Below, piece by piece: positions 13,231 through 37,956 of a stretch of 38,874 bases of DNA. The notes beneath the pieces were generated by a model. That model ran no database searches, had not been told where the DNA came from, and saw only the letters and a list, made by a program, of their open reading frames with translations. This DNA comes from a virus. The translations under genes and the position numbers were made by a program. The stretch is from positions 1 through 38,874 of IMG/VR virus record IMGVR_UViG_3300017971_000144. The stretch is one strand, 5' to 3'. Numbering within the stretch: position 1 is the first letter of the stretch; every line of letters begins with the position of its first letter.

Positions 13231-15021
13231 ATGTCGCAAATGGGAAAATTCTCCGGAGGTATTCTGGGGATACCAATAAATACAATTACGGGTAATATTG
13301 GTGGTGCAGTTGGTCCGGATGCATTTTCGAATGTTGATCTTTTAGGTTCTTCGCCTATAACAGTTACGGGTAATCCGGCGGCGTGGACATTAACGATAAC
13401 GGTTGATTCGGCTACTACGACTTCTGAGGGTGTGGTTGAATTGGCAACTGATGCTGAATCGATAGCGGGAGCTGATACGACGCGTGCTATAGTTCCGAGT
13501 TCTTTGGTTGCAAAATTGGGCACTATGACAGCAAATGGTGTGGCATATGGTGCAGGTACGGCAGCTGCTGTTAATTGGACTGCGGCGGGTACTGATGGCC
13601 AGGTGCTTATAGGGGCAACTGGTGCGGCGCCGGCATTTGCAACAATGGCTTCTGCGGGAGGCACGATAGTATACACGCCGGGTGCCAATACATTGAATTT
13701 AGAAGTCGGTGGTATGTTTGTGCAGTCTTTTGCGACAGATGTTGCGGGCCCAGTGGTACCATTAGCTGGTACAATCACTATGGCAGGCGGCAGTAACATT
13801 AGTACTGATGGCTCTGTAGCGAATACAGTTACGTTTAATCTTAGTGGTACAACGGATCATGCGGTTCAGATAGGGAATGCTGGTGGTAGTTTAACGTCGG
13901 TAGCTGTTGGAACGGATGGCCAGGTGCTTATAGGGGCAACTGGTGCGGATCCTGCTTTTGCTACTATAGCGTCCGCAGGAGGAACGATAGCATTTACACC
14001 TGGCGCTAATACTCTAAATATGGAAACTGGCGGCACAGTGGCAATTTCGTTTGCTACAGACGCAGCTGGGCCTCAATCTCCGCTGGCGGGTACTATAACG
14101 ATTGCTGGTGGTAATAATATAACTACTGATGGTAGTACGGCTAATACGGTTACTATAGATTTAACTGGAACTACTCAGTATGCATTACAAGTTGGAGATG
14201 CTACGGGCAGTTTAGATTCTTTGGCTATAGGTACAGCAAATCAAGTTTTAATGTCAGGTGGTGCTGGAGCAAATCCTGCATGGAGTACGGCGACATATCC
14301 AGCTACAGCAGCTACGGGAGACGTGTTATATGGGTCTGCTGCTAATACCATAACTGCCTTGGCATTTGATAATACAGCTACGCGTTATTTGGCTAATACT
14401 GGTGGTGGTGCGACAATTCCGGCCTGGGATCAGATTAATTTAACGAACGGGGTAACGGGCATTTTGCCGGTTGCTAATGGTGGTACTGGAGTTGCTAATC
14501 CGACAGATCATTCCTTGCTCGTTGGGTCGGGTGCTGGAGCTATGACAGAATTGGGAGCTGCAACTAATGGCCAGATTCCAATTGGCTCGACTGGTGCGGA
14601 TCCAGTCTTGGCTACTATCACGCAGGGTGCGAATATTACCGTAACGAATGGTGCAGGTTCTATAACAATAGCATCTACGGCTTCAGGCGGTATTTCGTGG
14701 TCGGAGGTCACAGGAACATCGCAAGCTGCAGCTGTTGATTCTGGCTATATATGTAACAACGCGGCGTTAGTTACCGTTACATTGCCTGACACTGCAGCAG
14801 TTGGCTCTATAGTCGCGGTAACTGGAAAAGGTGCTGGCGGTTGGCGTATAGCACAGAATGCAGGTGAAACAATTTATTGGGATGAAAGTAATGCAACTAC
14901 AACTGGTGTAGGTGGAAGGTTAGACTCTACTGACGATTATGATTCAGTAAGGCTGATTTGTATAACGGCAGATACTGATTGGGGAGTTTTGAGCTCTAAG
15001 GGAAATATTAGTATTACGTAG
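13231..15021 (+). CDS. Tail fibre protein with repeated shaft and conserved C-terminal head
   Basis: A 596-residue protein with AAGGAG before the ATG. The N-terminal GNIGGAVGPDAFSNVDLLGS recurs in the fibre at 17021 (GDVGGAVGPDVLGNIDITGG). The shaft has long repeats, each starting near TDGQVLIGATGA and followed by GGTI.(Y/F)TPGANTLN, at residues about 125-165, 228-270 and again, diverged, near 440. The last 110 residues (ISWSEVTGTSQAAAVDSGY to TDWGVLSSKG) form a head domain with VTVTLPDTAAVGSIVAVTG and GGWRIAQNAGETI, widespread at the ends of phage fibres. It is probably a trimeric receptor-binding fibre. Confidence 0.83.
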   Translation: MSQMGKFSGGILGIPINTITGNIGGAVGPDAFSNVDLLGSSPITVTGNPAAWTLTITVDSATTTSEGVVELATDAESIAGADTTRAIVPSSLVAKLGTMTANGVAYGAGTAAAVNWTAAGTDGQVLIGATGAAPAFATMASAGGTIVYTPGANTLNLEVGGMFVQSFATDVAGPVVPLAGTITMAGGSNISTDGSVANTVTFNLSGTTDHAVQIGNAGGSLTSVAVGTDGQVLIGATGADPAFATIASAGGTIAFTPGANTLNMETGGTVAISFATDAAGPQSPLAGTITIAGGNNITTDGSTANTVTIDLTGTTQYALQVGDATGSLDSLAIGTANQVLMSGGAGANPAWSTATYPATAATGDVLYGSAANTITALAFDNTATRYLANTGGGATIPAWDQINLTNGVTGILPVANGGTGVANPTDHSLLVGSGAGAMTELGAATNGQIPIGSTGADPVLATITQGANITVTNGAGSITIASTASGGISWSEVTGTSQAAAVDSGYICNNAALVTVTLPDTAAVGSIVAVTGKGAGGWRIAQNAGETIYWDESNATTTGVGGRLDSTDDYDSVRLICITADTDWGVLSSKGNISIT

Positions 15022-15030
15022 GAGATAGAT

Positions 15031-15183
15031 ATGCCTTGGAAATTAGGATCAAAAAAAGCTAAAGGGTGGCCCATTTTAAAGAATGAAAATGGGCGCTGGA
15101 AGGTTGTTGGATATTCAAATTCAAAAGCTAAGGCAGAGGCTAGTATTAGGGCTCGATATGCTTCTGAAAATAAGAAGGGATAG
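15031..15183 (+). CDS. Small basic protein, unknown
   Basis: A 50-residue protein starting at ATG 15031 behind GGAGATAG, just after the fibre stop. It is rich in K and W: MPWKLGSKKAKGWPILKN, then NGRWKVVGYSNSKAKAEASIRAR. The pattern GWPI-----GRWKVVG-S-SK--A-AS is that of short phage proteins that carry one copy of a small beta-hairpin and helix. It is short but well supported by the ribosome site and tight spacing to both neighbours. Function unknown. Confidence 0.66.
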   Translation: MPWKLGSKKAKGWPILKNENGRWKVVGYSNSKAKAEASIRARYASENKKG

Positions 15184-31591: not shown

Positions 31592-31668
31592 GGCCCTGTC
31601 GTCTAGTTGGTTAGGACGTTGCCCTTTCACGGCAAAAACAGTAGGTTCAAATCCTCTCAGGGTCGCCA
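31592..31668 (+). tRNA. tRNA-Glu (UUC)
   Basis: A complete cloverleaf. Acceptor GGCCCTG pairs with CAGGGTC (one G-T), the D arm is GTCTAG...GGAC, the anticodon stem TTGCC/GGCAA encloses CTTTCAC with anticodon TTC, and the T loop is GGTTCAAATCC with one mismatch in the stem. The 3' CCA is encoded. Order and D-arm resemble bacterial tRNA-Glu. It lies between the portal terminator and the leftward RuvC gene; it may support A-rich phage codons, since glutamate GAA is frequent. Confidence 0.92.
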
Positions 31669-31682
31669 CAAAGGAAAAAATG

Positions 31683-32147
31683 TTATAGTCTCCATAAAGC
31701 GCATAATGCTATAGCTATAGCGTCTGTTATATCATCTCTTTTAGGCTTCTTTATCTTAAAAAATCTCAAAATCATATTAGATACTTGCTCTTTCGAAGCT
31801 TTTCCGTAACCAGTTACGGCTTGTTTTACTACCGATGGCGCATACTCAGATAATTTAAGCTTATTTTGATAGGCTATGAGATATAAGATACCCCTCACAT
31901 AGCCCAATTTAAGAAATGTACTAGCGTTTTTATATAGAAATGGAGTTTCTAGAGCCAGATGTGTGACTTGATGTCTTTTCACTTTTTCAGAGATTAACCC
32001 ATACAAATCACCGATTTTATTAATAAGTCCCCCCGATTTATGTACATCAAAGCACCCGGCATCGATAAGACATGTCTTTTGATTAGCTTTTTTTAGGACT
32101 GCGTATCCTGCATACCGAGTGCCTGGATCTATTCCAAGTATAATCAC
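31683..32147 (-). CDS. RuvC-type Holliday junction resolvase
   Basis: A 154-residue protein on the minus strand. All four catalytic acids of RuvC are in place: D in LGIDPGTRYAGYAV (residue 6), E in LALETPF (near 67), and two Asp in RDDITDAIAIA near the C-terminus. The KQAVTGYGKASKEQV segment is the conserved DNA-contact region. It resolves four-way junctions left by recombination and replication before packaging. It lies apart from ERF and the RusA-like gene and seems to have been acquired separately. Confidence 0.93.
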   Translation of the reverse strand: MIILGIDPGTRYAGYAVLKKANQKTCLIDAGCFDVHKSGGLINKIGDLYGLISEKVKRHQVTHLALETPFLYKNASTFLKLGYVRGILYLIAYQNKLKLSEYAPSVVKQAVTGYGKASKEQVSNMILRFFKIKKPKRDDITDAIAIALCALWRL

Positions 32148-33824: not shown

Positions 33825-33852
33825 GCTTTATTCATATTCATTCTTTCCTTTG

Positions 33853-33890
33853 CCCCCTAGTTTTTTTGTAATTTTTTCCTAGGGGGTTTT
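33853..33890 (+). terminator. Intrinsic terminator after the scaffold gene
   Basis: CCCCCTAG and CTAGGGGG form an 8-bp stem around an 18-base T-rich loop, followed by TTTT. It limits transcription from the scaffold gene into the capsid gene, so the leader beyond it probably has its own promoter, or read-through sets the ratio. Confidence 0.82.
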
Positions 33891-33922
33891 GCATCAGATA
33901 TTTAATGCGATATAAAATCAAA

Positions 33923-33999
33923 TTGGCAGTACGGGAATTCGCCAACCCACGAGCAGTATGGGCATCGCTCACCCAATAGGCTGTAGGGAATCGCCTCCC
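33923..33999 (+). ncRNA. Three tandem H-type pseudoknots in the capsid mRNA leader
   Basis: Three copies of a unit with period 26-27 bases. In each, an outer stem encloses a loop GGG that pairs with CCC just downstream. Unit 1: stem TTGGC (33923) / GCCAA (33941), GGG 33933, CCC 33946. Unit 2: GAGC (33951) / GCTC (33967), GGG 33960, CCC 33972. Unit 3: AGGC (33978) / GCCT (33993), GGG 33986, CCC 33997. The loops share GTA before GGG and AT.C after. The stems differ in sequence but keep pairing, which is internal covariation. It lies 115 bases before the capsid ATG. Confidence 0.72.
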
Positions 34000-34002
34000 C
34001 GT

Positions 34003-34114
34003 CGAACATTCGTTCGGTTGATAGTTACCTTATAACAAACCCCTAGCAGGAAAACAATGTAAATTGATATACATAAATAACATGCTAGCGAAAGGTTAAT
34101 TTTAGGAGATAGTA
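34003..34114 (+). promoter_or_regulatory. Rest of the structured capsid leader
   Basis: A hairpin CGAAC-attc-GTTCG at 34003-34016 follows the pseudoknots. CTAGCA at 34043 can pair with TGCTAG at 34083, enclosing an AT-rich loop. The ribosome site AGGAG lies at 34104. No promoter was identified with confidence in the leader. Confidence 0.5.
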
Positions 34115-34378
34115 ATGGCAATAACCACTACAACGATACTTCCGCCCCCAGTCCAGCAAAGCTTTAGCTATAAATTATTGTCGGTACCCGTTCCCTCAAT
34201 GATTCACAAGGTACCCGCGATGAAGAAAAGGATGCCGGCAAAAGGCGGTAATACTCTTCGTATGAGAAGATATAATGCACTTGATACTGCAATGGTACCA
34301 CTCGGCAACACCGGAATAACCCCTCCAGCTCAGACACTCACTGCGGTAGACATAGATGCTAAAGTAGATTTCTACGGT
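34115..34378 (+). CDS. Major capsid protein, exon 1 (codons 1-88)
   Basis: Start of the N4-gp56-type major capsid protein; strong site AGGAG and ATG. It encodes the N-arm and start of the E-loop region (AITTTTILPPPVQQSFSYKL, GGNTLRMRRYNALDTA) and ends in KVDFYG. The frame stops two codons later, inside the intron. The complete protein is join(34115..34378, 35085..35174, 35371..35964), 315 residues, which reads without interruption: DFYG-TYVELNEQ, then GVSLR-QTEDQLTRD. The exon end CTACGGT pairs with the intron guide to form P1. Confidence 0.93.
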
Positions 34379-35084
34379 TTCGCATAGGTGCCGTAGTAAA
34401 ACCCGTTCTGATTGCGAGGAACCCTAAACATATGTTATACTTGAGTGGTACATATATAAAAAGACATAGAAAGGATTACATATGCAAGGCAACTCGAGGG
34501 AAGATTTGATTTACTTCGCAGGTTTATTTGATGGTGAAGGTTCAATTATGATAGTGAGAAACGCTTCAGAGTCATTTATGAAAAACAGAAAGCATCCCCA
34601 TTACGGGCTAGTGTGTAGGATTGGAATGATAGATAAAGACTTAATATATCAATTCCATGCGGCTGTAGGATTAGGGTCTGTTTATGAAGAGAAACCTTAT
34701 CACCACAAGCGCGCTATAACGCGTTGGATGTGTAGAAGAGTTGACGAAGTACCTCTTTTTTTAGAAAAGATGATTCCATTTTTAAGGTCTAAGAAAAAAA
34801 ATGCATTATTAGCGCAGGAATTTATAAAAGAGTGTGTTGATAATCGAAGAAGAAAAATCAGCGAAGAAGTGCACAAAAAACAGCATGATTTTTATCTTAA
34901 GATGAGAATATTGAATGGAATAGTTGAATCGCCCGCAACGACTGAGCGAATGGGCAAGCGTGGTCGAGATAAAGGCATACGCTTGAAGCAACAGTCTGAT
35001 CTCATATGAAAGTATGAGAGAGAAATCCGAAGAGGTTTCTCCGCCAAGTAGAGAATATTTGGTCAGAAAAGTAACAGATTATTG
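34379..35084 (+). mobile_element. Group I intron 1 with homing endonuclease gene
   Basis: A 706-base intron in phase 0. The guide GCCGTAG (34390-34396) pairs with the exon end CTACGGT (34372-34378), including the U-G wobble that marks a group I 5' splice site. The guide continues 5' as ATAGGT, which pairs with the first six bases of exon 2, ACATAT, at five of six positions (P10). The intron ends in G at 35084. ATTGCGAGGAACCC (34414-34427) looks like the P4-P5 element; CTGATC (34996) and GGTCAG (35061) may form P7. The rest of the core is not resolved. The endonuclease gene fills most of it. Confidence 0.85.
34482..35009 (+). CDS. LAGLIDADG homing endonuclease inside capsid intron 1
   Basis: A 175-residue protein with AAAGGA before its ATG. 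One LAGLIDADG motif is seen near residue 12, YFAGLFDGEGSIMI, with the catalytic acid in DGEGS. The rest has the expected beta saddle (YGLVCRIGMIDKDLIYQF) and helical C-terminus. A single motif means it should act as a homodimer on a near-palindromic site in an intron-less capsid gene. It spreads the intron and may overlap the intron's 3' structural core with its last codons. Confidence 0.9.
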   Translation: MQGNSREDLIYFAGLFDGEGSIMIVRNASESFMKNRKHPHYGLVCRIGMIDKDLIYQFHAAVGLGSVYEEKPYHHKRAITRWMCRRVDEVPLFLEKMIPFLRSKKKNALLAQEFIKECVDNRRRKISEEVHKKQHDFYLKMRILNGIVESPATTERMGKRGRDKGIRLKQQSDLI

Positions 35085-35174
35085 ACATATGTTGAATTAA
35101 ACGAACAAGTGACTCTGCAGAGCCAAGATCCAACATTAAATGAAGCAGCGGCGAGATTAGGAGTTTCACTCCGT
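35085..35174 (+). CDS. Major capsid protein, exon 2 (30 codons between two introns)
   Basis: This exon is only 90 bases long and codes for TYVELNEQVTLQSQDPT, then LNEAAARLGVSLR. It starts with ACA after the intron-1 terminal G and ends with CGT. The residues are those of the N4-gp56 capsid family at this place (a Y-----E--TL--QDP-LNE pattern), joining DFYG before and QTEDQLTRD after. Gene finders would miss it because it is shorter than most limits and lies in a frame closed at both sides. Confidence 0.92.
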
Positions 35175-35370
35175 TAATTTGGCGGAGTATAAATTTCTGG
35201 TAATTGACTTGGAAGCCTAAGGCGATAGCTATGGCGACAAGGCGCAAGGGTAAAGCTAGCGTGAGAGACTAAACCCAGAAACCCGTAAGGGATGTGATAG
35301 TCCGAACAGCACGACGAAAGGTGCTGAGATGCACAGAAATGATGTATCCCCCGTAAGGGAGTAACAAATG
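35175..35370 (+). ncRNA. Group I intron 2, 196 nt, without ORF
   Basis: The full core can be drawn. P1: exon end CTCCGT (35169) with GCGGAG (35182), U-G at the splice site. P10: exon 3 CAAA with TTTG (35178). P3: TTTCTGG (35194) with CCAGAAA (35275). P7: GACTA (35267) with TAGTC (35298). P8: CCC-GTAA-GGG (35282-35291). P9: CAGCAC (35307) with GTGCTG (35321). A second CCC-GTAA-GGG lies at 35350. The intron ends in G at 35370. Both GUAA loops are of the GNRA kind that dock in group I cores. Confidence 0.93.
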
Positions 35371-35964
35371 CAAACCGAAGATCAGCTAACACGTGATATG
35401 TTGGCAGCAACCGCTGGTGCGATAAACTGCGTTGGCGGTAACAATGGTGACAACCCAACAAATATTGATCGGTCTGACGTTGATGACGTTGTTAGAACTC
35501 TTCTTTCGAACGATGCGTATACCGTAATGGATAACATCGAAGGTGAAGATAAGTTTGGCACCGGTCCTGTGCGTGATGCGTACTTTGCGCTGTGTTCAAC
35601 GCAGCTAACAGGTAACTTAGACGCTGTTGCTGGTTTCTTACATAAAAATCAGTATCCAGCTCCAATGAATGCATTAAGAACAGAGTGGGGTTCAATTGGT
35701 AACCTTAGGTTCTTAGTGTCGTCTATTGGTTCGATTACTGCAAATAGCTCTAACTTGGGTGCAGATGTCTATAATATTTTCTGCGTTGGTATGGAAGCAT
35801 ATGCTTGTATCGAGCAGGATCAGTATTCTGCGCACTTTATTTATCTGCCTCCTGAATATTCTGGGCCGTTAGCGCTTAACTGTACAGTTGGTTATAAGTT
35901 TGCAGAAGTGCCAAGAATTACAAACGATCTCTGGGTAATTAATCTACGTGCAACAAGAGCTTAA
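35371..35964 (+). CDS. Major capsid protein, exon 3 (codons 119-315)
   Basis: Begins QTEDQLTRDMLAATAGAINC and ends ITNDLWVINLRATRA before TAA. It contains the P-domain and A-domain of the N4-gp56 family (DDVVRTLLSNDAYTVMDN, VRDAYFALCSTQLTGNLDAV, LRTEWGSIGNLRFLVSS, YNIFCVGMEAYACIEQ). The ATG at 35368 that seems to open this frame is not a real start: it straddles the splice site, with only its G in the intron end, and no ribosome site precedes it. Without splicing the virion would lack a usable coat protein. Confidence 0.93.
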   Translation, partial: QTEDQLTRDMLAATAGAINCVGGNNGDNPTNIDRSDVDDVVRTLLSNDAYTVMDNIEGEDKFGTGPVRDAYFALCSTQLTGNLDAVAGFLHKNQYPAPMNALRTEWGSIGNLRFLVSSIGSITANSSNLGADVYNIFCVGMEAYACIEQDQYSAHFIYLPPEYSGPLALNCTVGYKFAEVPRITNDLWVINLRATRA

Positions 35965-35975
35965 GGGAGATAATT

Positions 35976-36932
35976 ATGTCATATAATACTTATACTCAAC
36001 AAGGTTCTTTTGTTTCTACTGGCGCAAGAAAAACATTATTGCTTCGTGGCGATATTGATTGGATTCATACATGGAACCTTACGACTCTCGCTGCGGGCGG
36101 TGCTGGTACTGGGGTTGAGTTCAGATGGATGCGTGGATTTGAAGATGATACCGCTATAGAATATACAAAGTTGGCTGCTGATGATTCAATTGCAATTGAT
36201 ACAATTGCTTCTGGTGGTTTTACACCTATCGATTCGTCAAAAACGCCTAAGTTATCGGCAATTAATTCAACGGTAACAGCTGTTTCAAATGCGTCGCCTC
36301 CGTTAGTTTCTCTAACATCGACAGCTGGTCTAGAAGAAAATGATATTATTCGAATCATTAATGTAACGGGTGCGCAGCAATTGGGTGGTATCGATTTTAC
36401 AATTGATACAATAACAGCAAATACAAGCTTTGAACTAGCTTTTGCGCCAACAATTGTTGCAGGTACAATTGGTTCATTTAGAAGGGTAATTAAGAATCCG
36501 CTTTATTATCCGCGTCATAGATATATTTCTGCGATTACACAGGCTACAAACGCTGTTATAACGCTAACTGTTACCCACGGATTTACTGTTGGCCAAATAG
36601 TTAGATTCCAAGTACCAGCAGCCTTTGATATGACAGAAATGAATAACCTTCAAGGAACAATTACTGCTGTAAGTGCAGTAAATAATACTATCACAGTAAA
36701 TATTGATTCGTCAGGATTTACAGCTTTTGCATGGCCACTAACAACTGACGTTCCATTTACTCCTGCAATGGTTATTCCTCTGGGCGATGAGGCTACAGTA
36801 CTTGATGGTGCTACGTATAACCAAGGTTACATTGGAGTTGAATTGGCAGCTGGCGTTGATAGCCCAGCAGGTGTGTTAAATGACGATATATTTTGGATGG
36901 CCGGCAAGGGTTTTTCTGTAAATAATGAATAG
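35976..36932 (+). CDS. Capsid-associated beta protein (paralogue 1)
   Basis: A 318-residue protein behind GGGAG. The N-terminal 70 residues (SYNTYTQQGSFVSTGARKTL, GDIDWIHTWNL, EFRWMRGFEDDTAIEYTKLA) are shared with the next gene. Two small beta modules follow (about 95-165 and 180-250), each starting near a T-V--V or IS-IT strand, with EENDIIRI or TVGQIVRF; they resemble the FCCH-like domain of phage structural proteins. The C-terminus has GVLNDDIFWMAGKGFSVNNE. Position right after the coat gene suggests a decoration or head-fibre protein. Confidence 0.72.
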   Translation: MSYNTYTQQGSFVSTGARKTLLLRGDIDWIHTWNLTTLAAGGAGTGVEFRWMRGFEDDTAIEYTKLAADDSIAIDTIASGGFTPIDSSKTPKLSAINSTVTAVSNASPPLVSLTSTAGLEENDIIRIINVTGAQQLGGIDFTIDTITANTSFELAFAPTIVAGTIGSFRRVIKNPLYYPRHRYISAITQATNAVITLTVTHGFTVGQIVRFQVPAAFDMTEMNNLQGTITAVSAVNNTITVNIDSSGFTAFAWPLTTDVPFTPAMVIPLGDEATVLDGATYNQGYIGVELAAGVDSPAGVLNDDIFWMAGKGFSVNNE

Positions 36933-36944
36933 GCCATAGTTAAT

Positions 36945-36966
36945 GCCGGGCTTAGCCCGGCTTTTA
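36945..36966 (+). terminator. Intrinsic terminator between capsid-associated paralogues
   Basis: GCCGGGC-tta-GCCCGGC followed by TTTTAT. The next ribosome site (AAGGAG) begins within its last bases, so the terminator likely reduces rather than stops downstream expression. Confidence 0.85.
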
Positions 36967-36978
36967 TAAGGAGATATC

Positions 36979-37956
36979 ATGTCATATAACACATATATTC
37001 AACAGGGAAGCTTCCTTGCTGATGGTGAGCGAAAGACCGTTAATCTGCGTGGTGATATTGATTGGATGCATGTATACAATATAACTGTTCTTGCTGCAGC
37101 AGGTGCCGGAACAGGCGCTGAGTTTAGATGGATGCGTGGCCTTACTGACAATACTGCAATTGAATATACAAAATTGGCTGCTGATCAGTCACTTTCTCCT
37201 GATTATGTAACACCAGGTTTTAGGTATTTTAACGATCAGGATGATAGTGAGCTTGGTGCGCCTAATACAACGGTAACTAGAATAACTGCTGCAGGAGCTG
37301 TCTCGTGTACTAGTACTGCAGGACTGCTTGAAGGATCGATTGTACGATTTTTTAACGTAGAGAATGCAAATCAAATCAGTGGAATGGATTTTACTGTAAG
37401 TACAATTGTAACTAATACTAGCTTCAATATATCTGCTCTTCCATCAAATATGGTCGACACTGGTGCTGGAATTACTGGCACATTTAGGATTGTTAATAAA
37501 GATCCTATGTATAGCCCTACAAAAGGTGTAATTACTGATGTTACTACGGGCGTTAATACGTTTATTACAACCTCTCGCAACGTAAGCGATATATTTTCAG
37601 AGGGGCAATACGTACGGTTTAATATACCGGCCGGATGTGGGATGCCAGAGCTTAACGGTTTAGTGGGTAGAATTCTAGGCGTATCATCAGGATTAAATTT
37701 GATAGAGGTAGATATCGATTCATCGGCATTTACAGCATTTGCATTTCCACTGCATGCAGCGGTACCAGTTTCACTTCCGGAAGTTGTTCCGGTTGGTGAT
37801 TATGGGTATGATTTGCTAGTTAACAACATTGGCCAAACACAGAATCTATACAACATTGGAATGATTCTAGAGCCGGGTACTGATGCTCCTGCAGGTTCTG
37901 CCGGAGATGAAATCTATTGGATTGCAGGAAAATCTTTCTCTGTGACAAATGAATAA
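36979..37956 (+). CDS. Capsid-associated beta protein (paralogue 2)
   Basis: A 325-residue protein behind AAGGAG, clearly homologous to its neighbour over the whole length (SYNTYIQQGSFLADGERKTV, GDIDWMHVYNI, GAEFRWMRGLTDNTAIEYTK, GDEIYWIAGKSFSVTNE). The two beta modules (LLEGSIVRFFNVENANQI; FSEGQYVRFNIPAGCGMPEL) are kept but loops have changed. Tandem duplication next to the coat gene gives two related surface proteins. It ends just before another terminator. Confidence 0.73.
   Translation: MSYNTYIQQGSFLADGERKTVNLRGDIDWMHVYNITVLAAAGAGTGAEFRWMRGLTDNTAIEYTKLAADQSLSPDYVTPGFRYFNDQDDSELGAPNTTVTRITAAGAVSCTSTAGLLEGSIVRFFNVENANQISGMDFTVSTIVTNTSFNISALPSNMVDTGAGITGTFRIVNKDPMYSPTKGVITDVTTGVNTFITTSRNVSDIFSEGQYVRFNIPAGCGMPELNGLVGRILGVSSGLNLIEVDIDSSAFTAFAFPLHAAVPVSLPEVVPVGDYGYDLLVNNIGQTQNLYNIGMILEPGTDAPAGSAGDEIYWIAGKSFSVTNE

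Follow-up and report, generated by a model that had tools for sequence, protein, structure and literature searches.

In the mycobacteriophage LittleE, a group I-like intron with a LAGLIDADG open reading frame (ORF) interrupts the major capsid gene, and its splicing was demonstrated by reverse-transcription PCR and protein sequencing (PMC3706429). The Jug phages harbor about 18 group I introns per genome, with essential genes split into two to three pieces, and metatranscriptomes support the splicing of 37 of 76 introns (PMC12363816). In engineered systems, namely trans-excision-splicing ribozymes and spliceozymes, a group I core excises a short segment devoid of its own core by means of P1, P10 and P9.0; the excised segments measured 1-28 nt in earlier designs (up to 28 nt in vitro and 1 nt in cells) and 100 nt in the spliceozyme (PMC4094466). 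The present work concerns the major capsid gene of an environmental virus, IMG/VR record IMGVR_UViG_3300017971_000144 (the window, i.e., the entire analyzed stretch of 38,874 nt), which is interrupted by two group I introns, and the homologous genes of its relatives, in which full-size introns are accompanied by very short, core-less "mini-introns".

The window resembles LittleE in possessing a group I intron with a putative LAGLIDADG ORF in a phage major capsid gene, yet LittleE belongs to another phage group and has a single intron, with no mini-introns described in the available part of its report, whereas the window has two and the capsid genes of its relatives contain as many as six (PMC3706429). 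Like the Jug phages, the present group has genomes dense in group I introns, but those of the Jug phages average about 206 nt and are distributed over many genes, whereas here they are crowded in the capsid gene and some of them lack a core (PMC12363816). The trans-excision-splicing ribozymes and spliceozymes are man-made, act in trans and carry the guide in the ribozyme; in the natural arrangement proposed here, the substrate supplies the guide, and the core belongs to the following intron on that transcript (PMC4094466). The trans-spliced split group I introns of mitochondria likewise consist of non-contiguous parts; there, however, the pieces rebuild one core for a single splice event, whereas here a core-less second intron would use the complete core of its neighbor (PMC3873408). 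Since capsid introns and multi-intron genes are already known in phages, the window case is not new in kind and adds to them. For a natural core-less intron excised by the ribozyme of a neighbor, no report was found in the open-licence papers searched.

The proposal advanced here is that some natural group I introns have probably lost their ribozyme and persist as bare splice-site guides, down to 4 nt in length, that would be excised by a neighbor via a junction shared by two P1 helices. IMG/VR was searched for capsid genes interrupted at the two intron sites of the window (protein sites 88.0 and 118.0), using patterns that excluded uninterrupted genes, and a third capsid site was searched in the same way as a counter-check. 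At site 88.0, eight relatives carry introns of 333-794 nt, and 110 loci carry an insert of 28-65 nt (95 distinct inserts); at site 118.0, introns of 195-438 nt occur in 13 relatives and introns of 4-5 nt in 10. Full-size introns in the relatives measure at least 193 nt, and the mini-introns are too short to accommodate the core from P3 to P8 (about 140 nt), such that a catalytic core of their own is absent.

The anatomy of the mini-introns, their covarying base pairing, the missing core, the linkage to a partner intron and the frame left open by their removal are direct observations. At site 88.0, the exon end is GGU for all 95 distinct inserts, nearly always as UACGGU or UAUGGU, and a guide within the insert pairs with it, placing a G opposite the last U (the U·G at the cut) in 95/95. 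P10 is formed by the bases just 5' of the guide and the first bases of the following exon, over at least 3 bp in 93 of the 95. The third base of the ACN exon codon is paired with its guide base in 94/95, by all four pair types, and in one locus (L247) the exon start is changed to CAA and the guide to UUG. None of the distinct inserts is both in frame and stop-free, and stops are present within 87 of them. Following removal of insert and introns, the frame is open from Met to stop in all 70 fully covered genes, and the differences among mini-bearing capsid genes fall preferentially on third codon positions. The 5' portions of mini-introns resemble those of full introns at 88.0 (compare UUCGCAUAGGUGCCGUAG in the window with UUCGCGUAGGUGCCGUA in L157), and the mini-introns probably derive from full introns by loss of all that followed P1, save for the end.

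The occurrence of the mini-introns is linked to that of a full-size intron further downstream. Another intron follows at site 96.2, 104.0, 104.2 or 116.2, 26-86 nt downstream, in 102 of the 110 loci; among the remaining eight, the contig breaks off within the first part of such an intron in seven and right at the site in the last, and for one of the seven (L103) a longer record has a core about where expected. In L150 (1250-2150), for example, the end of exon 1 precedes a 28-nt mini-intron, a 26-nt exon and a 782-nt partner intron. Partner introns without a mini-intron were found at more than 20 loci, and none of the eight full introns at 88.0 has such a downstream partner. The 4-5-nt introns at 118.0 are accompanied by an intron at 144.0 in 10/10 cases, while introns at 144.0 also exist without them. 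The dependence is therefore one-way. In the records of mini-bearing phages, group I cores are present in 20/20, compared to 0/20 in intron-free relatives, and within each record they cluster in about 2.4 kb or less, the size of an interrupted capsid gene. The one exception among these 20 records is an extra core in record G015 (which holds L104), at positions 15001-15130, outside the main cluster.

The base pairing also extends beyond the guide. The tail of the mini-intron, 3' of the guide, can pair with the coding sequence that immediately precedes the partner, and this helix ends where the 8-nt P1 strand of the partner begins in 71 of 87 cases, the four partner sites each having their own tail. 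For partners at 96.2, the tail duplex has a mean of -11.5 kcal/mol, compared to -6.3 when exons are swapped between loci and -5.6 when the tails are shuffled. Across 52 aligned loci, the structure made up of P1, P10 and the tail helix is 96.8% paired, and its covariation score of 0.36 compares with 0.10 for shuffles (0/500) and 0.04-0.07 for slid versions. Since the exon strand of these helices encodes protein, codon choice follows the intron. In the 4-5-nt introns the guide lies outside the insert, as GGCGGAGU in the exon, directly beside the partner P1 strand UAACGGU; it is found there in 10/10 of these loci, in 0/10 loci having the 144.0 partner only and in 2/80 intron-free genes. Both designs, at 88.0 and at 118.0, bring the first P1 and the partner P1 to one junction, with about equal lengths.

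We infer from these features that the mini-introns are removed in the RNA, as well as the agent and order of their removal, the agent being in our judgment probably the group I ribozyme of the next full-size intron downstream. The guide would form P1 with the end of exon 1 (U·G at the cut) and P10 with the first bases of the following exon, and the tail would pair with the exon up to the base where the P1 strand of the partner starts. Both P1 helices would then leave one junction, such that either could dock in the same partner core. In the simplest reading, the partner ribozyme would accept either P1 and would first excise the mini-intron, whereby the tail helix would be taken away and the partner could then splice with its own P1.

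In the window, both sites are occupied by full introns (Table 1). A sequence-only reading of this DNA had proposed that exons of 88, 30 and 197 codons join in frame into one N4-gp56-type coat protein of 315 residues, and this proposal holds to the base. Read without splicing, the capsid frame meets a stop after 90 codons, whereas the joined product matches the N4-gp56 major capsid family TIGR04387 over residues 4-310 with 141.1 bits (cut-off 60) and the PF25209 profile with 33.1 bits (cut-off 27). The joins could be placed to the base because an IMG/VR relative, L001, carries the same protein uninterrupted (97% amino acid and 86% nucleotide identity), with both window junctions contiguous. The same intron positions were returned, without the sites being supplied, by a spliced-alignment program written for this analysis, which uses a profile from 80 relatives and is biased toward T at exon ends and G at intron ends; among uninterrupted controls it found no intron in 79 of 80. 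The capsid mRNA of the window would thus almost certainly contain two group I introns, both equipped with a ribozyme core, whose splicing yields one 315-residue coat protein; that they actually splice is likewise deduced from the genomic sequence. The 90-nt spacing between them was correctly given, yet it is not extreme for a phage group in which exons between introns are as short as 26 nt. Synonymous differences between the window and L001 are higher around codons 60-150, as a co-conversion tract might leave them, but also at the start of the gene.

The general group I model is too insensitive for these introns, and a family model was therefore built. At gathering score, Rfam detects a tRNA alone in the window and nothing in 16 relatives; its RF00028 model gives intron 1 a score of 27.1 bits, below cut-off, and does not detect intron 2. 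When intron 2 is aligned with 43 small full-size introns of relatives, the six helices of P3-P8, including the P3/P7 pseudoknot, are 98.5% paired across the 44 introns, and 20 of 27 core pairs vary on both sides, a level which none of 500 shuffles comes near. A covariance model constructed from 21 relatives, with the window excluded, matches intron 2 as a complete group I intron with 121.5 bits. It matches intron 1 in two halves, of 24.3 bits (P7-P9, 3') and 15.8 bits (P3-P6 side, 5'), because the LAGLIDADG ORF lies between them. The assignment of both introns to group I at the bases originally given is supported. The junction helices agree in part with that reading: P1 with U·G at the cut is present in both introns and P10 in intron 2 (CAAA/UUUG), but P10 of intron 1 (ACAUAUG/CAUAGGU) is imperfect, with one A·G mismatch. 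The family model finds no group I core in the window other than introns 1 and 2, and a search of viral contigs found no relatives of the intron-2 core.

The putative LAGLIDADG ORF of intron 1, omitted from the earlier reading, overlaps P7, P3, P8 and P9 of the ribozyme with its 3' end. It matches PF00961 with 18.9 bits (E 0.003), below the cut-off of 23.1 bits, and phrog_5046 with an E-value of 2e-16, and StenR_269 contains a related ORF annotated as an intron homing endonuclease; the enzyme probably makes intron 1 mobile. A search of viral contigs found no relatives of the endonuclease protein. In the Stenotrophomonas phage StenR_269 (L202, OR838459; 3959-5420), a free-standing relative of the endonuclease lies immediately 5' of an intact N4-gp56 capsid gene.

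For the window, it may be asked whether the insert separating exons 1 and 2 has lost the ability to splice, owing to the overlap of the endonuclease ORF with the core, such that the coat protein is made from fragments. The weak scores of the two halves of intron 1 and the mismatch in P10 would suit this explanation, but P1, P3 (7 bp), P7 (5 bp) and P8 are all intact by direct reading of the sequence and the exons remain 97% identical to those of L001, which renders it very improbable. For the mini-introns, a comparable view would treat them as decaying remnants in dead capsid genes, or as assembly artefacts. The resemblance of their 5' ends to full introns at the same site is what a remnant would show, yet the spliced frame is open in 70/70 genes with a third-position bias of differences, compensatory changes keep the base pairing, and the samples are many and independent; such an origin is scarcely credible.

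Alternatively, the inserts may never leave the RNA. Gene 60 of phage T4, which reportedly contains an insert of similar size, is said to be expressed by translational bypassing of a short coding gap with stops. Bypassing of this kind needs matching take-off and landing codons. A ribosome skipping the 28-65-nt inserts would account for the stops found in 87 of 95 and for the hairpin that surrounds the take-off codon, but matching codons were not found in the mini-introns: the triplet before resumption (AAG, ATG, TTG, TAG and others) is never the take-off codon GGU in the 95 distinct inserts. Nor does bypassing offer a reason for the constant U·G, the P10 complementarity across the junction and the full group I intron nearby every time, and it is considered decidedly improbable. 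Removal by another ribozyme or a protein acting in trans, with its gene at a different place in the phage or in the host and the nearby intron being incidental, finds a precedent in the engineered systems in which guided group I ribozymes act in trans. Nearly all recognizable cores in the 20 mini-bearing records are, however, clustered in one stretch the size of the capsid gene, and the tail helix is specific to the neighboring intron site at four different sites; this explanation is thus regarded as unlikely.

Several points weigh against excision by the neighboring ribozyme. The final G of the mini-introns is partly forced by the search patterns, and the alignment program favors T exon ends and G intron ends, such that neither the exon-end T nor the intron-end G represents independent evidence. 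P10 of the 4-5-nt introns has just 2-3 bp, and every relative is a metagenomic contig. The penultimate bases of mini-intron and partner, those before the final G, show no clear agreement, the match not being significant (p = 0.06), and a shared P9.0 is therefore hypothetical. The presence of mini-introns changes at least 13 times on well-supported branches of the capsid tree, which indicates their frequent gain, loss or transfer, and co-inheritance with the partner by co-conversion could explain part of the linkage. For the window and the phage group taken as a whole, intact group I introns together with mini-introns served by a neighboring core nonetheless form the best explanation, in which we place good confidence.

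Mapping of all genes by spliced alignment reveals about 40 intron sites in the capsid genes of the relatives. Their 221 full introns all have T/G ends, which the program favors, and 218 have a P1 of at least 6 bp. Some short candidates were rejected: introns of 14-16 nt near codon 116-118 in a first spliced alignment became 4-5 nt at 118.0 once the minimum length was lowered, a 76-nt intron at 214.0 in L243 and 63-nt introns at 116.2 in L106 and L140 proved to be cut-up full introns, and a 91-nt intron at 52.1 in L222 was a contig-edge effect. At codon 199 of L153 the program places an unexplained 6-nt gap (CTCAAG), possibly two extra residues and not an intron. Many introns at 96.2 (e.g., L088, L089 and L116) contain an extra P1-loop segment (TTCTTTGAAATTTCTTGGTTTTG), complementary to some 13 nt in the 3' exon, which resembles a greatly extended P10 (mean -13.7 versus -9.4 kcal/mol with shuffled exon). 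In the partner introns at 96.2 of L116 and L150, a LAGLIDADG ORF runs antisense to the capsid gene, an orientation also reported for LittleE. The phage collection contains no cultured relatives with mini-introns, the nearest cultured phage capsids having about 25% identity. The sole capsid relative in the bacterial genome collection (L257, GTDB contig PLSG01000101.1) belongs to a bog Parachlamydiaceae metagenome-assembled genome, a weak hint of the host.

Table 1. Capsid gene exons, introns and intron elements in the window
Feature	Position	Strand	Basis
Exon 1, major capsid protein gene, 88 codons	34115..34378	+	joined frame, TIGR04387 match, relative L001, spliced alignment
P1 of intron 1, exon strand CUACGGU, U at cut	34372..34378	+	sequence
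Group I intron 1, 706 nt, protein site 88.0	34379..35084	+	L001, spliced alignment, core models
P10 strand of intron 1, CAUAGGU, opposite 35085-35091 with one mismatch	34383..34389	+	sequence
P1 of intron 1, guide strand GCCGUAG	34390..34396	+	sequence; P1 retained among relatives
P3 5' strand of intron 1, CCCGUUC, pairs with 34948-34954	34402..34408	+	sequence; family covariation of P3
Putative LAGLIDADG homing-endonuclease ORF within intron 1, 175 aa, single motif YFAGLFDGEGSI	34482..35009	+	PF00961, phrog_5046, annotated relative
P7 5' strand of intron 1, GACUG, pairs with 34992-34996 CAGUC	34940..34944	+	sequence, Rfam, core model
P3 3' strand of intron 1, GAAUGGG	34948..34954	+	sequence
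P8 of intron 1, CAAGCGU...ACGCUUG	34955..34985	+	sequence, core model
P7 3' strand of intron 1, CAGUC	34992..34996	+	sequence, core model
Exon 2, major capsid protein gene, 30 codons	35085..35174	+	joined frame, relative L001, spliced alignment
P1 of intron 2, exon strand ACUCCGU	35168..35174	+	sequence
Group I intron 2, 196 nt, no ORF, protein site 118.0	35175..35370	+	L001, spliced alignment, family covariation, core model
P1 of intron 2, guide strand GCGGAGU	35182..35188	+	sequence
P3 5' strand of intron 2, pairs with 35275-35281	35194..35200	+	family alignment, covariation
P7 5' strand of intron 2, GACUA, pairs with 35298-35302 UAGUC	35267..35271	+	family alignment, covariation
P8 of intron 2, CCC GUAA GGG	35282..35291	+	family alignment, covariation
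P7 3' strand of intron 2, UAGUC	35298..35302	+	family alignment, covariation
Exon 3, major capsid protein gene, 197 codons + stop	35371..35964	+	joined frame, TIGR04387 match, L001, spliced alignment

Elsewhere in the window, the region 33830-34060, between the upstream ORF and the capsid gene, contains a hairpin resembling a terminator (CCCCCTAG...CTAGGGGG), together with three short, similar hairpins (GGCAGTACGGGAATTCGCC, GAGCAGTATGGGCATCGCTC and GGCTGTAGGGAATCGCC). Two tandem paralogous genes at 35976-37956 code for proteins of 318 and 325 residues, both starting with MSYNTY.QQGSF, and the first of them has a weak match to a major tail protein family. A tRNA-Glu (TTC) at 31592-31668 adjoins a RuvC-like ORF at 31683-32147 on the minus strand.

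If the proposed mechanism is true, one ribozyme would serve two introns, and the loss of the catalytic part would not be fatal to a self-splicing intron when a neighbor does the work. A step proposed for group II introns on their way to the spliceosome would thereby be seen repeatedly in a phage gene, providing a group I equivalent of the view that spliceosomal introns descend from self-splicing introns which lost their core and used a shared catalytic RNA, and a natural counterpart of engineered trans-excision splicing. The mini-intron and its partner form a small system, contained in one transcript of about 1 kb, which is testable in vitro. Gene callers would also be getting the capsid gene wrong in a widespread group of environmental phages, because introns of 4-65 nt escape intron models.
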